A stretch of 43,058 nt of DNA from Acidimicrobiales bacterium (GTDB lineage Bacteria > Actinomycetota > Acidimicrobiia > Acidimicrobiales > JAVJTC01), in contig JAVJTC010000014.1 in NCBI GenBank assembly GCA_040219085.1, positions 1 through 43,058 on the forward strand, read 5' to 3'. Below the pieces are notes generated by a model, which saw only the letters and a program-made list of their open reading frames with translations, ran no database searches and was not told the origin of the DNA. Shown in pieces: positions 27,143 to 32,670 of this stretch. The first letter of the stretch is position 1. Each line of letters starts with the position of its first letter. The position numbers and the translations under genes were made by a program.

Positions 27143-27769
27143 TCAGCCGTCGTCGACGGATGCGTCGAGCGGAGGGCTGATGTCGATGGGCTCGGTGGGC
27201 AGGTCACCGGCGACCACCGGCGCCAGGAACTCCCGCAGGCGCACCGGCAGAACCGGCTCATCCGACGCCATCAGATCGTCGAGTCCCCACCAACGCGCAC
27301 CACTGAACGCCTGCGCCTCGAGCGATTCGAGATGGCGGGGCGCCCACTCCCCCCCGTCGCACCACGCCACGTGGATCCGCTCGTCCGAACAGAAGTGGAG
27401 CCCACCGAAGTCGAACTCGACGTACTGGGTCCAGATGCACGGACCGATCTCGACGTCGCTGAAGCCGGCCTCCTCATGGAGCTCACGGCGTGCGGCGGAG
27501 GCGCTGTCCTCACCACGTGCCATGCCGCCACCGGGGATCTCCCACCACGCTGGCTTGGTCGCGTCCGCCGGGTCGCTCGCGCTGATCAGGAAGACCGCAC
27601 CGGATCGATCGAGGAGAACCACCCGGGCGGCGGGGCGACGCAGGGTCCAGACCACGGCGTCGACGGTATTGCCCGGGACGGTGGCCTGCACCCGCCGGTC
27701 CGAGCGCCGACCGGCGTGGAGGTGGAGCGTGACGTCGGGGACTGGGTACCGATCGTGCCGTGGGACCAC
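27143..27769 (-). CDS. Nudix hydrolase
   Basis: Up to 208 residues. The Nudix box is complete (about 80-103): G-x5-E-x7-REL-x-EEAGF in GGMARGEDSASAARRELHEEAGF broken as G..E..RELHEEAG. The core starts at RRPAARVVLLDRSGAVFLI. The protein should cleave nucleoside diphosphate derivatives; the substrate is unknown. The start is uncertain: the GTG at 27769 has no clear ribosome site, and the first 40 residues are not obviously part of the fold, so an internal GTG at 27655 is an alternative. Confidence 0.85.
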   Translation of the reverse strand: MVPRHDRYPVPDVTLHLHAGRRSDRRVQATVPGNTVDAVVWTLRRPAARVVLLDRSGAVFLISASDPADATKPAWWEIPGGGMARGEDSASAARRELHEEAGFSDVEIGPCIWTQYVEFDFGGLHFCSDERIHVAWCDGGEWAPRHLESLEAQAFSGARWWGLDDLMASDEPVLPVRLREFLAPVVAGDLPTEPIDISPPLDASVDDG

Positions 27770-27935
27770 GGCCGACGTGACGGACGCCTGAGGCCTCCTA
27801 CCTGGCCATCCACGAACGGATGACCGCGGCCGAGCGGGCCGAGGTCGTGTCGGCGGCGCTGCCCCGGGTCGCGGCCGCTTCCTGAGCAGGGGCCGGCACG
27901 GGCGAGCGGGCTGAGCCGGTTCGGTTTGGCGGCCA

Positions 27936-28071
27936 GGCGCAGTGCCATAGCGAATTCGTCGTGGGTCGGCTCGGAGCCCGGGGGTGCGGCTGGCGCAGTG
28001 TCGTAGCGAATTCGACGTGGCTCGGCTCGGAGCCCGGGGGTGCGGCCAGGCGCAGTGTCATAGCGAATTCG
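27936..28071. repeat. Left repeat cluster: three direct copies
   Basis: Three 23-base copies at 27936-27958, 27992-28014 and 28049-28071, differing at only two positions. Each runs GGCGCAGTG-YC-R-TAGCGAATTCG. The spacers (33 and 34 nt) are also nearly identical, sharing a stretch with GGCTCGGAGCCCGGGGG, so the true unit is about 56-57 bases. Confidence 0.9.
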
Positions 28072-28107
28072 ACGGAGGACATCCCGCCATACCCCGGGCC
28101 CGGACAC

Positions 28108-28271
28108 GATTCGCTATGACGTTGGCGCGGGTGGAGCACCGGCTCGCGCTGCCTATTCGCTACGACGTTGGCGCGGCGGATGGAGCGCCGGCTCGGGATG
28201 CGATTCGCTACGACGTTGGCGCGGCGGATGGAGCGCCGGCTCGCGCTGCCTATTCGCTACGACGTTGGCGC
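28108..28271. repeat. Right repeat cluster: four direct copies, opposite orientation
   Basis: Four 20-base copies at 28109-28128, 28155-28174, 28203-28222 and 28252-28271. The core is ATTCGCTAYGACGTTGGCGC, with T in the first copy and C in the other three. Spacers of 26-29 nt are near-identical (GGATGGAGCGCCGGCTCG), making a unit of 46-49 bases. The first 12 bases are the exact reverse complement of the left-cluster core, so left and right clusters are inverted relatives. Confidence 0.9.
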
Positions 28272-28280
28272 GACGGGCGG

Positions 28281-28319
28281 GTTCGGACGCGAACGGGCGC
28301 CCCTTCGAAGGGGCGCCCG
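28281..28319. terminator. Two adjacent perfect hairpins
   Basis: GTTCG-GACG-CGAAC (28281-28294) abuts a 26-base near-palindrome (28294-28319) whose arms are CGGGCGCCCCTT and its complement. The second is stable enough for a terminator on either strand; neither side has a real T-run. With no plus-strand gene ending here, it could end a minus-strand transcript entering from 28640. Confidence 0.45.
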
Positions 28320-28640
28320 ATCGTGTCGTCTCGTTCGTAACCCGCAGCGTCGAGTGCTGCTCACGGACGGCGACTCGTCTTTGTTCCTCTTGGGCCCGCA
28401 ATGGGCGCTCGGTCGGAAGAAACTGGCGGGTACGGTCCGCGTGCCTCTCGGCGTCTCCGGATCAGGGGCACGGAAGGCAGGTGGTGCATCGCCTTCCTCA
28501 CCGACAGCTGCGCCCCCTTCCACGAGACAACTCCGCTGGCGCCGGGGAGACCCCCGTCGACCCGACGCCGGCGGAAAATGTGGTGCGCCGTACGGCTCCT
28601 GTCCATCACGGAGGTGATGGGTGAAGGTCACCGTTCGACG
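28281..28640 (-). ncRNA. Candidate structured small RNA (unknown family)
   Basis: A possible minus-strand promoter (TTGACG at 28669-28674, 16 nt, GACAAT at 28647-28652) would start a transcript near 28640 that reaches the strong hairpins at 28294-28319, about 345 nt. It would contain a 7-bp hairpin with a CTCC loop (28603-28620), a 7-bp hairpin with a 12-nt loop (28472-28497) and a region closed by 28337-28345 with 28426-28433 that encloses two smaller stems. I see none of the conserved sequences of tmRNA, RNase P RNA, SRP RNA or common riboswitches. Folding was done by eye and works on both strands. Confidence 0.25.
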
Positions 28641-28653
28641 TCTTCCATTGTCC

Positions 28654-28679
28654 ATGGGTTCACCCGCGCGTCAACCCAT
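28654..28679. terminator. Hairpin just downstream of the GH3 gene
   Basis: ATGGGTT (28654-28660) pairs with AACCCAT (28673-28679) around 12 nt, 12 nt past the GH3 stop. It may help end the GH3 transcript, although no T-run follows in that direction. Confidence 0.35.
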
Positions 28680-28690
28680 TAAGAAAACAT

Positions 28691-31213
28691 TCACAAGCCG
28701 ACGGGCTCGATGACGACCGGTCCGGACCCTGCGATGTCCACCGGGAGCACGTGGTGGACGACGACTGCCGACTCGGCCACGAGCACGTCGTAGCGACCGG
28801 GGTCGACGACCCAGCCGGGTCCGGAGCGCTCGTGGCCACGACCCGCCGGGACGGGTAGCCCCTCGACGAGCGCGGCGAAGTCCCGGTCGCCGGGGTCGTA
28901 GTGGGCGAAGGCCCGCGGACCGAGGTCGATCGTGACCTCGCGCGACTCGCCGGCCGCGAGGTCGACCTTCGCGAAGCCCTTCAGTTCGGTGGGCGGACGA
29001 GCGAGGCGTGGGGCCGACGGCGCCACGTAGCACTGCACGACGTGGTGACCGCGACGCTTTCCGGTGTTGGTCACCACGACGCGTACCGTGAGCCCCTCAC
29101 CCGGCTCGACCGACGACGCCGACAGCGTCGCCGACGTCGTGAAGGTCGTGTAGGACAACCCGTGCCCGAATGCGAAGAGCACCGGAAGCGCACGGGCGTC
29201 GCTGAAGCGGTGTCCCACGAACATCCGCTCCGCGTAGGCGGTCACCGAGTTCTCACCGGGATAGGCGAGGTGGGCGGGGGTCCACTCGTCACGCAGGGGG
29301 AACGTGGTCGGCAGTCGTCCCCCCGGGTCGGAGTCGCCGACGAGAACGTCGACGAGGGCCTCGGCCATCTCCTGGCCACCGAACCAGACGTCGAGCACGG
29401 CCGCGACGTCACCGACCCAGTCCATGGCCACCGGCGCGCCGGCGTTGACGACCACGATGCAGCGCCCGTTGACGGCGGCGACACGCCGGATCAGTTCGTT
29501 CTGGTCTCCGGGAAGCTGCGTGGTGGTGCGATCACGGCCCTCGGTCTCCCACTCGTCGTTCGTCCCGACCACGACGATCACCGCGTCCGCCCCGGCCGCG
29601 GCCGCCTCCGCCGCGGCGATCGGATCGGCCCCGGCCGGACGACCGAGGCCGACCTTCGCGCCGAACACGACCTGGGTGTCGCGGTTCGCGTACTCGACGG
29701 TCAGCGCCACGGGGACCCCTTCGACGAGGTCCACGTCGGCCGTCAGCGGTTCACGGGCGAAGCCGAACAGGTCGTCGCCCGCCACGAGGTCGGTGTCCCA
29801 TCCGTCGCAGACGAGGCGGTCGTCGAGCCACAGCCTCGCGCGTCCCGCCTGCACGAGCGACACGGTGTGGACCCCGGTGTCGACGGGCACGAAACTCGCG
29901 CTGGCACGCACGGACCATTCGTCCGCGTCGAGACCTCCGGGGGGATCGGACCAGACGAGACGACCGTTCGCCATCCGCACCGAATCAACCGGTTCACCCG
30001 CCGGTTCGTGGCCTGCGAACACGTCGACGTCGAATGCGATGTCGAGTGCCGGCACGAAGCGCTCGTTGTCGCAGCCCCGTGCGTGAACCACCTCGACATC
30101 GTCGCCGAGTCTGGCGACGAGCGCGTCGAGCGGCGACGTGCGGTGCAGCGGATTGATGTTCGCCGAGCCGCCGCCCATGATGCGCGCGACGGAAGCGTTG
30201 GGTCCCACCACGGCCAGGCGGCGCAGCGCAGCGACGTCGAGCGGGAGAATCCCGTCGTTGACCAACAGGACCGTGGCCTCGGCCGCCGCACGCCGGGCGA
30301 CGGCTACACGCTCAGGTACCTCTTCCACCCGCTCGGTCGTGTCCAGGGGGCCGGCGAGCGCACCCACCCGCTCGCGCAGCCGCAGGAGCCTGTCGACCGC
30401 GGCGTCGACGTCGGCTTCGGCGGCCTCGCCCGCACGCACCGCCGCCGCCAGCCGACCCTCGCCCCAGTGCAGCGCCGGTCCCGGCATCTCGAGGTGCAGG
30501 CCGGCCTCGAGCGACGCGGTGAGTGAGCGCACCGCGAACCAGTCCGACACGACGACCCCGTCGAAGCCCCACTCCCCCATGAGGACATCACGGACGAGCC
30601 AACGGTTCTCGCAACAGAACGTCCCGTTGAGTCGGTTGTACGACGACATCACACCCCAGGCACCGCCTCTTCGCACCGCCATCTCGAAGGGCAGGAGGTA
30701 GACCTCGCGCAACGTGCGCTCGTCGATCACCGAGTCGGTCGTGTTGCGCTCGAACTCCGCGTCGTTCGCGACGAGATGCTTCGGCGTCGTCGCGACACCG
30801 CGGGACTGAACTCCACGGATGTAGGCCGCCGCGAGCTCGCCGGTCAGCACCGGATCCTCGCTGAAGCACTCGAAGTTGCGCCCGCCCGTCGGTGTGCGGT
30901 GCAGGTTGATCGTCGGCGCGAGGAGCATCCGCGCGCCCTTGGACAGTGCCTCGTCCCCCAGCACCTCCCCGACGCGTTCCACGAGGTCGACGTTCCAGGT
31001 GGCACCCAGAGCCGAGCCGCACGGCACGCACAGTGCCGGCAGTCCCGAACCCAACAGACCGTTGCCGCGCGCGCCGTTGGGGCCGTCGGTGCACTTCACG
31101 TCGGCCACGCCGAGGCGATCGACGCCGGGCAGGGTCCAGGTGTCGGCCCCGCTCATCATGGCGGTCTTCTCGTCGAGGGTCATCGCCGCGCGCAGCGCTC
31201 GGAGATCGGGCAT
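28691..31213 (-). CDS. GH3 beta-glucosidase with PA14-like insert
   Basis: 840 residues from the ATG at 31213. The N-terminal GH3 barrel begins TLDEKTAMMSGADTWTLPG and contains TDGPNGARG, KHLVANDAEFERN and the nucleophile region VVVSDWFAV (Asp224). The second domain has ATVLLVNDGILPLDV and the acid/base region DEWETEGRDRT. Between the domains' halves, about 400-540, is a PA14-like carbohydrate-binding insert (VDTGVHTVSLVQAGRARLWLDD, split by loops). A fibronectin III-like domain closes the protein (VTNTGKRRGHHVVQCYV). No signal peptide, so it acts on imported glucosides. Its product glucose would feed the ROK kinase downstream in the window. Confidence 0.93.
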   Translation of the reverse strand: MPDLRALRAAMTLDEKTAMMSGADTWTLPGVDRLGVADVKCTDGPNGARGNGLLGSGLPALCVPCGSALGATWNVDLVERVGEVLGDEALSKGARMLLAPTINLHRTPTGGRNFECFSEDPVLTGELAAAYIRGVQSRGVATTPKHLVANDAEFERNTTDSVIDERTLREVYLLPFEMAVRRGGAWGVMSSYNRLNGTFCCENRWLVRDVLMGEWGFDGVVVSDWFAVRSLTASLEAGLHLEMPGPALHWGEGRLAAAVRAGEAAEADVDAAVDRLLRLRERVGALAGPLDTTERVEEVPERVAVARRAAAEATVLLVNDGILPLDVAALRRLAVVGPNASVARIMGGGSANINPLHRTSPLDALVARLGDDVEVVHARGCDNERFVPALDIAFDVDVFAGHEPAGEPVDSVRMANGRLVWSDPPGGLDADEWSVRASASFVPVDTGVHTVSLVQAGRARLWLDDRLVCDGWDTDLVAGDDLFGFAREPLTADVDLVEGVPVALTVEYANRDTQVVFGAKVGLGRPAGADPIAAAEAAAAGADAVIVVVGTNDEWETEGRDRTTTQLPGDQNELIRRVAAVNGRCIVVVNAGAPVAMDWVGDVAAVLDVWFGGQEMAEALVDVLVGDSDPGGRLPTTFPLRDEWTPAHLAYPGENSVTAYAERMFVGHRFSDARALPVLFAFGHGLSYTTFTTSATLSASSVEPGEGLTVRVVVTNTGKRRGHHVVQCYVAPSAPRLARPPTELKGFAKVDLAAGESREVTIDLGPRAFAHYDPGDRDFAALVEGLPVPAGRGHERSGPGWVVDPGRYDVLVAESAVVVHHVLPVDIAGSGPVVIEPVGL

Positions 31214-31219
31214 CTCGCG

Positions 31220-31225
31220 ATCATC
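31220..31225 (-). promoter_or_regulatory. Possible -10 (GATGAT) for the GH3 gene
   Basis: GATGAT lies 6 nt before the ATG and keeps the A at -11 and T at -7; there is no Shine-Dalgarno site, so a leaderless start is plausible. Confidence 0.3.
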
Positions 31226-31260
31226 GCATCCGGATCGCCGGCCCGGGACGGGGAGGTCGC

Positions 31261-32670
31261 TCAGCCCCCGATGAGAGCGCGCCGCAGGACCTTGCCGGTC
31301 TGGTTGCGGGGGATCTCGGTGACCACGACCCAACGGGTGGGGACCTTGTAGCCGGCCAGGACATCGCGGGCGTGGCGGACCAGAGAGGCCTCGTCGAGAC
31401 GGCCACCGGGATCGGTCGGGACGACGAATGCGACGACGCTCTCGGACTCGTGCTCGTCGGCGACGCCGACGACCGCGACATCGGCCACCGTCGGGTGTGC
31501 CGCGAGCACGGCCTCCACCTCGGAGGGATCGACGTTCTCGCCGCCGCGGACGATGCGGTCGGCGAGACGACCGCGCAGGAACAGGTAGCCGTCGTCGTCG
31601 ATCACGCCGAGATCGCCGGTGTGGAGCCAGCCGTCGGCGCCGGGCGAGAAGAGGTGCCCGGCCCGTGCGAGCAACTCACCCACCCCGGCATGGTCGGGGT
31701 CGGCAATGGCCGCGGTGACACCGGCGACGGCACGGCCGACACTTCCGGTGAGGCGGTGGTCACCAGCTGCGATCGCCACGTGGTCGGCGGCGTCCAGGTG
31801 GAAGAGCGGGCTGCCCTCCGTCTGGCCGTAGATCTGGTGCACCGCAACCCCGGGAACCGCCTCCACGAGCCGTTCCATGAGCGGCGGCGGCATCGGGGCC
31901 CCGCCGTAGACGAACGTCGACGCGGCCGTGTCGGCCCCGAGCCCATCGGCGTCGAGCAGACGGTCGATCATCGTCGGGACGACGACGACGTGGGTCGCCC
32001 GTCCCGCCACCCGAGCCGCGTACGCCTCGACGGTGAACCGGTCGACGCCGATCCACGTCGCACCCACCCCCAGGGTGACGAAGGCCATTCCGAGCGCCGT
32101 CGTGTGGTGGAACGGCGACGTGGTCGCCAGCACCGAATCGGGGCCGACCCCGAGGATGGACCGGTACAGCTCGGTGCGGGCCACGAGGCGGTCCTGGCGG
32201 ACCCGGACCGGCCGGGGCGGACCGGTCGTTCCCGAGGTGTGCAGGACCGCCGCGAGCCCGGACCCCGACGGGGAGCCCATCTGGCTCGGCAACCGGGCCG
32301 CCCGCGGCCTGCCGGGGATCACACGGGACCCGTCGATCACGTCGGCGGAGGCCGGGTCGGCCACCACCAGTGACGGGTCGACTGCCGCGCACACCGCCGC
32401 CAACTCCGTCGCGGTGTGACGCGGGTTGAGCGGAGCGACCGGACGACCGGTGGCGGCGCCCGCCACGACGAGTGCGAGCGCCGTGGCCGACGAGTCGACG
32501 ACGGCGCCGACCGGCCGACCCGCCGGTGCTCCCAGGTCGTCGAGCCAGCCGGCGAGCGCCGCCGCACGCTCCCGGAGCTCGCCGTAGGTGACGGGGCCGT
32601 CTGATCCGAGGACCGCGATGCGGTCGGCTGGGACCGCGGCGACCCGTCCGGACCACGACGTCGGGTTCAA
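31261..32670 (-). CDS. AMP-dependent acyl-CoA synthetase/ligase family protein
   Basis: 469 residues from a TTG at 32670 that overlaps the pgi stop as TTGA. ANL-superfamily motifs in order are [13 protein letters not shown] (A3), YGQTEGSP (A5), [18 protein letters not shown] (A7), [20 protein letters not shown] (A8, hinge) and [11 protein letters not shown] with the catalytic lysine (A10). The A3 loop has arginine where lysine is usual. It is short (469) for fatty acyl-CoA ligases and could use an aromatic or short acid; the substrate is not readable. Translational coupling to pgi is odd for such an enzyme and may be incidental. Confidence 0.85.

Follow-up and report, generated by a model that had tools for sequence, protein, structure and literature searches.

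A candidate lineage-specific small RNA gene between a GH3 beta-glucosidase gene and a repeat array in an Acidimicrobiales genome

The intergenic gap and its neighbours

The window, that is, the whole stretch of 43,058 nucleotides analysed here, is contig C14 of the 3.77-Mb genome of an Acidimicrobiales bacterium, and includes a long gap between two genes encoded on the minus strand. The family of this bacterium is represented in the genome collection by the present genome only, and all homologue searches were performed without a close relative. The closest relatives of the glycosidase encoded upstream of the gap come from Acidimicrobiales and Ilumatobacteraceae. The main features of the locus are as follows.

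27143-27769, minus strand: downstream NUDIX gene
27770-28690 (921 nt): intergenic gap between the GH3 beta-glucosidase and NUDIX genes
28281-28294, minus strand: small perfect hairpin GTTCG-CGTC-CGAAC, directly adjoining the next feature (read from the sequence)
28294-28319, either strand: perfect palindrome CGGGCGCCCCTTCGAAGGGGCGCCCG with an 11-bp stem and no U-tract, resembling an I-shaped terminator at a 3' end (genome survey)
28294-28640, minus strand: candidate non-coding transcript of about 347 nt, from the predicted start to the base of the end hairpin, without coding potential
28647-28674, minus strand: sigma70-like promoter TTGACG-16-GACAAT with a predicted start at about 28640 (motif scan and genome survey)
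28654-28679, either strand: 26-bp imperfect, operator-like dyad ATGGGTTGACGCGCGGGTGAACCCAT that spans the -35 box plus spacer
28691-31333, minus strand: upstream gene for a GH3 beta-glucosidase with a PA14 domain (Pfam)

The GH3 gene ends in a weak terminator-like element of its own, a hairpin followed by a T-tract (28709-28694), and the T-rich stretch that precedes the promoter-like site doubles as this element. No tRNA genes were found in the window. On its left side, the gap contains a repeat array (27929-28276) adjoining the candidate RNA region and consisting of two facing halves, namely about three plus-strand units of 56 nt with the core GTCATAGCGAATTCG followed by about four reversed units of 48 nt. 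Allowing two mismatches, the genome contains 22 copies of this core, compared with a single occurrence of a control, and these often form REP-like inverted pairs 40-57 nt apart (C20:255681/255721, C34:57588/57645, C41:3290/3330). Further left, a plus-strand open frame (27781-27885), which ends with YLAIHERMTAAERAEVVSAALPRVAAAS and a stop codon and has no Pfam match, resembles what would remain of the C-terminal part of a gene since lost.

The description of the remaining stretch as protein-free, made in an earlier note on this DNA, is borne out. Gene-like codon statistics are absent from all frames of 27820-28690, no frame tested there has a Pfam match at E<=10, and tblastn of the frames yields weak, scattered protein matches, none of them firm. 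Thus, judged by codon statistics and Pfam, the stretch contains no translated frame, as would be expected of a small RNA gene.

A promoter-like site followed by a gene-end-type hairpin

To place the two ends of the candidate in the context of the genome, a sample of 603 kb was surveyed, comprising 28 stretches (560 kb; contigs C20, C9 and C29) and the window, in which genes were called by a purpose-written simple caller based on codon statistics and 7.5% of the sequence was intergenic. The promoter-like pair reported previously on the minus strand, TTGACG and GACAAT separated by 16 nt, is indeed present at 28674-28647 and is the sole sigma70-like match of 9 of 12 positions within positions 1-40000 of the window, where 0 and 1 such matches were found and about 1.1 were expected from shuffled sequences. 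Across the sample, 15 of the 23 matches are intergenic compared with about 1.7 expected by area, a roughly ninefold enrichment that is approximate, given the simple gene caller and the usually higher A+T content of intergenic DNA. The predicted promoter is overlapped by the dyad at 28654-28679, to which a regulator may bind; similar dyads occur at 0.44 per kb of intergenic DNA, and there is no second copy of this one in the genome. Elsewhere, two gaps of contig C9 (122206-122233 and 136814-136841; L099) share a promoter-like region almost letter for letter, which represents either a dispersed repeat or a duplicated regulatory region.

At the opposite end of the candidate lie the two abutting perfect hairpins that had been noticed before (28294-28319, 11-bp stem, and 28281-28294). 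No other perfect hairpin of the window is as strong as the first of these, and its sequence has no second copy in the genome. Perfect hairpins of at least 10 bp in the 603-kb sample number 10 in intergenic DNA, which makes up only 7.5% of the sequence, and 20 within genes. Eight of the nine other intergenic hairpins follow an in-sense stop codon at a distance of 9-58 nt, and this set of eight includes one pair of near-copies; the nearly identical 15-bp perfect hairpins at C20:140529-140563 and C20:144569-144603 (L090), each separated by 29 nt from the stop codon before it, are good examples of gene-end hairpins without a U-tract in this genome. By contrast, the hairpin at 28294-28319 lies 371 nt behind the nearest in-sense stop codon, with the promoter-like site in between, and therefore most likely ends a separate candidate transcript. 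It is the only hairpin in the sample that is preceded in the same gap by a promoter match on the same strand with no gene between them. Whereas gaps elsewhere in the sample that contain both elements run from gene end to hairpin to promoter to the next gene, here the promoter comes first, then 347 nt devoid of genes, and then the hairpin; nothing else argues as strongly for a separate transcript.

I-shaped terminators that lack a U-tract have been described near stop codons in mycobacteria (PMC12288462); the hairpin at 28294-28319 shares with them the GC-rich perfect stem and the missing U-tract, and differs in its distance of 371 nt from the stop codon, compared with about 50 nt at most in the mycobacterial cases. 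Self-termination at such hairpins is disputed, as cited in PMC12288462 (Czyz et al. 2014 versus Ahmad et al. 2020), and Czyz et al. (2014), as cited in PMC12288462 and PMC8355165, reportedly found a U-tract to be necessary for the purified mycobacterial polymerase. Trimming of a longer transcript back to the hairpin would equally generate the 3' end.

Predicted fold and a possible mode of action

The elements of the candidate transcript predicted to fold are listed below.

28394-28406, minus strand: small hairpin
28464-28517, minus strand: stem 3, two main helices, pair probabilities 0.94
28531-28576, minus strand: GC-rich stem-loop 2, pair probabilities 0.9-1.0
28586-28640, minus strand: 5' stem-loop 1, pair probabilities 0.88-0.99
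28603-28620, minus strand: hairpin CCAUCAC-CUCC-GUGAUGG of stem-loop 1

The minus strand of 28290-28640 folds well as a whole (z -5.4), as had been proposed, but unevenly: without the end hairpin the score drops to z -2.3, against a 5th percentile of -2.1 for the window, and the remaining foldability is carried by the 5' part (28533-28640, z -4.3 versus shuffled sequences). A score of z -6 is attained elsewhere by a stretch of coding sequence. When compared with 154 stretches of other gaps, the minus strand of 28570-28690 falls into the lowest 2% and 28270-28469 into the lowest 8%, whereas the middle, 28370-28569, is average. Stem-loops 1 and 2, stem 3 and the end hairpin stand out with high pair probabilities; most other values are 0.35-0.7, and the middle of the transcript has no firm structure. 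The 5' and 3' ends of the predicted transcript do not pair with each other.

The three-way junction drawn by eye in the earlier note does not survive this analysis. Its probability in the full transcript is about 8%, its closing helix (28337-28345 with 28426-28433) has a pair probability of about 0.04-0.08 and the inner stem at 28351-28377 of about 0.05, so that the other inner stem, at 28394-28406 (P 0.95), is the sole firm part. In the isolated fragment, the junction is the minimum-energy fold, yet its z-score is -0.74 and 45 of 200 shuffled sequences fold as well. Hence, of the proposed structured RNA of about 345 nt, the layout of promoter, stretch without a reading frame and end hairpin holds up, with both ends backed by the genome survey, and the proposed inner fold fails.

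The best clue to what such an RNA might do, if it is produced, is the loop of stem-loop 1. This loop, CUCC (28610-28613), has an unpaired probability of about 1.0 and lies inside the motif AUCACCUCC, whose letters match those at the usual 3' end of 16S rRNA. The motif is complementary to GGAGGUGAU, and CUCC is complementary to Shine-Dalgarno sequences (GGAG). A perfect hairpin of at least 7 bp with CUCC in the loop was found in 7 of 1000 shuffled sequences of the same composition, and AUCACCUCC occurs at a frequency of about 0.008 per intergenic stretch as long as this one, both tests having been chosen after the motif was seen. In the mechanism that can be proposed on this basis, RNA polymerase would start at about 28640, at the promoter-like site just behind the GH3 gene, and produce a transcript of about 347 nt without a reading frame, which would end, or be trimmed back, at the GC-rich, U-less hairpin at 28294-28319; stem-loop 1 would then offer its CUCC loop to the Shine-Dalgarno sequences of target messages and block their translation. 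Among modes of action of an RNA gene, such a trans-acting riboregulator is the most likely one, although its probability taken by itself is low.

Relatives, rival explanations and known RNA classes

In line with the earlier note, which had seen no signature of a known RNA family, no Rfam family matches the region at or above its gathering score, and the matches at low thresholds are chance hairpins of the microRNA type. DNA searches of first 59 and later 397 genomes belonging to the order detected no homologue, no shared region was found downstream of GH3 among 33 related glycosidase gene loci, a covariance model of the 5' domain revealed no homologue in 298 genomes, and plasmid and phage collections contained none. 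Stray DNA matches were rejected: two lie in coding DNA (L004, L005), one is inside a redoxin-like gene (L074) and one amounts to no more than a similar hairpin located where a gene ends (L075). An extra match of the covariance model in another genome (L112) falls within a glycine-rich coding gene and is at chance level.

The best single reading of the locus, which we tentatively favour from the sequence, is a stand-alone, lineage-specific small RNA gene. The promoter-like site, the missing coding potential, the firm 5' stem-loops and the hairpin of the gene-end type are directly apparent, and from these transcription is inferred. Next comes a non-functional spacer, quite possible as well, in which the promoter-like site and the hairpin would be coincidental or the leftovers of a decayed gene beside a spreading repeat array. 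Such a spacer is suggested by the lack of a homologue wherever one was sought (genomes of the order, plasmids, phages and the model of the 5' domain), although the same lack would be seen both for a rapidly evolving small RNA from a family with a single genome and for junk. Also consistent with a spacer are the promoter match, given the number expected by chance in 40 kb, the apparent C-terminal coding relic within the same 921-nt gap, and a short plus-strand frame reading RWCIAFLTDSCAP that resembles a motif of the redoxin in L074, a resemblance treated as chance because it has no further support. Against it stand the succession of promoter and hairpin on one strand, both elements being of types enriched in intergenic DNA, the lack of a Pfam match in all frames, and the weakness and scatter of the protein matches.

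It is unlikely that the candidate transcript is instead a long 5' leader of the NUDIX gene with the hairpin serving as an attenuator. This gene is on the same strand and no other consensus promoter is present between 28640 and 27769; however, a leader of about 870 nt would have to extend through both a strong hairpin and the complete repeat array, and, as many promoters of this genome will miss the consensus (23 matches in 603 kb), the absence of a second match means little.

A divergent RNA that binds RNA polymerase, of the Ms1, CoRP or 6S type, is very unlikely. The size of the candidate is near that of Ms1 (about 300 nt), the genome has no detected 6S RNA, and the synteny phrases given for Ms1 include a glycoside-hydrolase neighbour (PMC9130861), but this phrase is generic, and the GH3 protein here is a PA14 beta-glucosidase. 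The specific neighbour of Ms1, a HAD-IB hydrolase, is absent from the contig: HAD-IB matches are found on C17, C10 and C9 and none on C14, so that the locus lacks the synteny of Ms1. Moreover, Acidimicrobiales are not among the groups from which Ms1 is listed (PMC9130861). 6S RNA (RF00013), which has a closing stem and a central bubble, is ruled out by the lack of a model match in the genome and by the unpaired transcript ends, and RNase P RNA (RF00010) by its location on C2. Still less probable is a new, lineage-confined class of abundant structured RNA that does the job of 6S or Ms1 by holding RNA polymerase in an order from which neither of the two is known; the candidate is ordinary in kind. 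A separate observation concerns a 433-nt gap on C10 (L038, 2104-2536), which adjoins a HAD-IB gene and contains a promoter-like TTGACG-16-GATGAT, a hairpin of 15 bp and repeats of the unit CCGCCGCAGGCGGCGAC; this gap is a better place than the present locus to search for an Ms1-like RNA.

Least probable of all is a plus-strand transcript, for example one encoding a small protein at 28401-28682, since, although the plus strand folds well too (z -4.0) and GGAGG precedes an ATG at 28617, the spacing of these is only 2 nt, the GC content by codon position is 0.57/0.66/0.73 compared with about 0.75/0.5/0.87 for genes, no Pfam family is matched and the plus strand has no promoter-like site.

A full-text literature search found no paper on small RNAs of Acidimicrobiia, which appear almost unstudied. 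If transcribed, the candidate would count among the early small-RNA genes of this class, possibly with a regulated promoter and a Shine-Dalgarno-binding loop; if not, it would be a warning that a promoter plus a hairpin alone over-predicts RNA genes.

Among known systems, 6C RNA is an example of an actinobacterial intergenic small RNA with an exposed C-rich loop. RNAs of the 6C type are likewise stand-alone and intergenic, with a stable hairpin and a pyrimidine-rich loop, whereas the candidate is longer, has one CUCC loop rather than two C runs and has no Rfam match. Ms1 RNA and its counterparts MTS2823 and scr3559 (PMC9130861, PMC11077062) are actinobacterial structured RNAs of about 230-300 nt encoded in a long gap, and Ms1 is defined by binding to the RNA polymerase core without sigma; in a comparison by synteny and fold rather than by sequence similarity, the candidate is like them in having a glycoside hydrolase, one of their possible neighbours, next to it, and unlike them in the missing HAD-IB neighbour and the unpaired ends. 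CoRP RNA of Corynebacterium (PMC11077062) has tRNA neighbours, which the window does not, and is longer (500 nt compared with about 345 nt), but it is likewise a long structured RNA confined to one lineage, and such RNAs escape homology search (PMC11077062).
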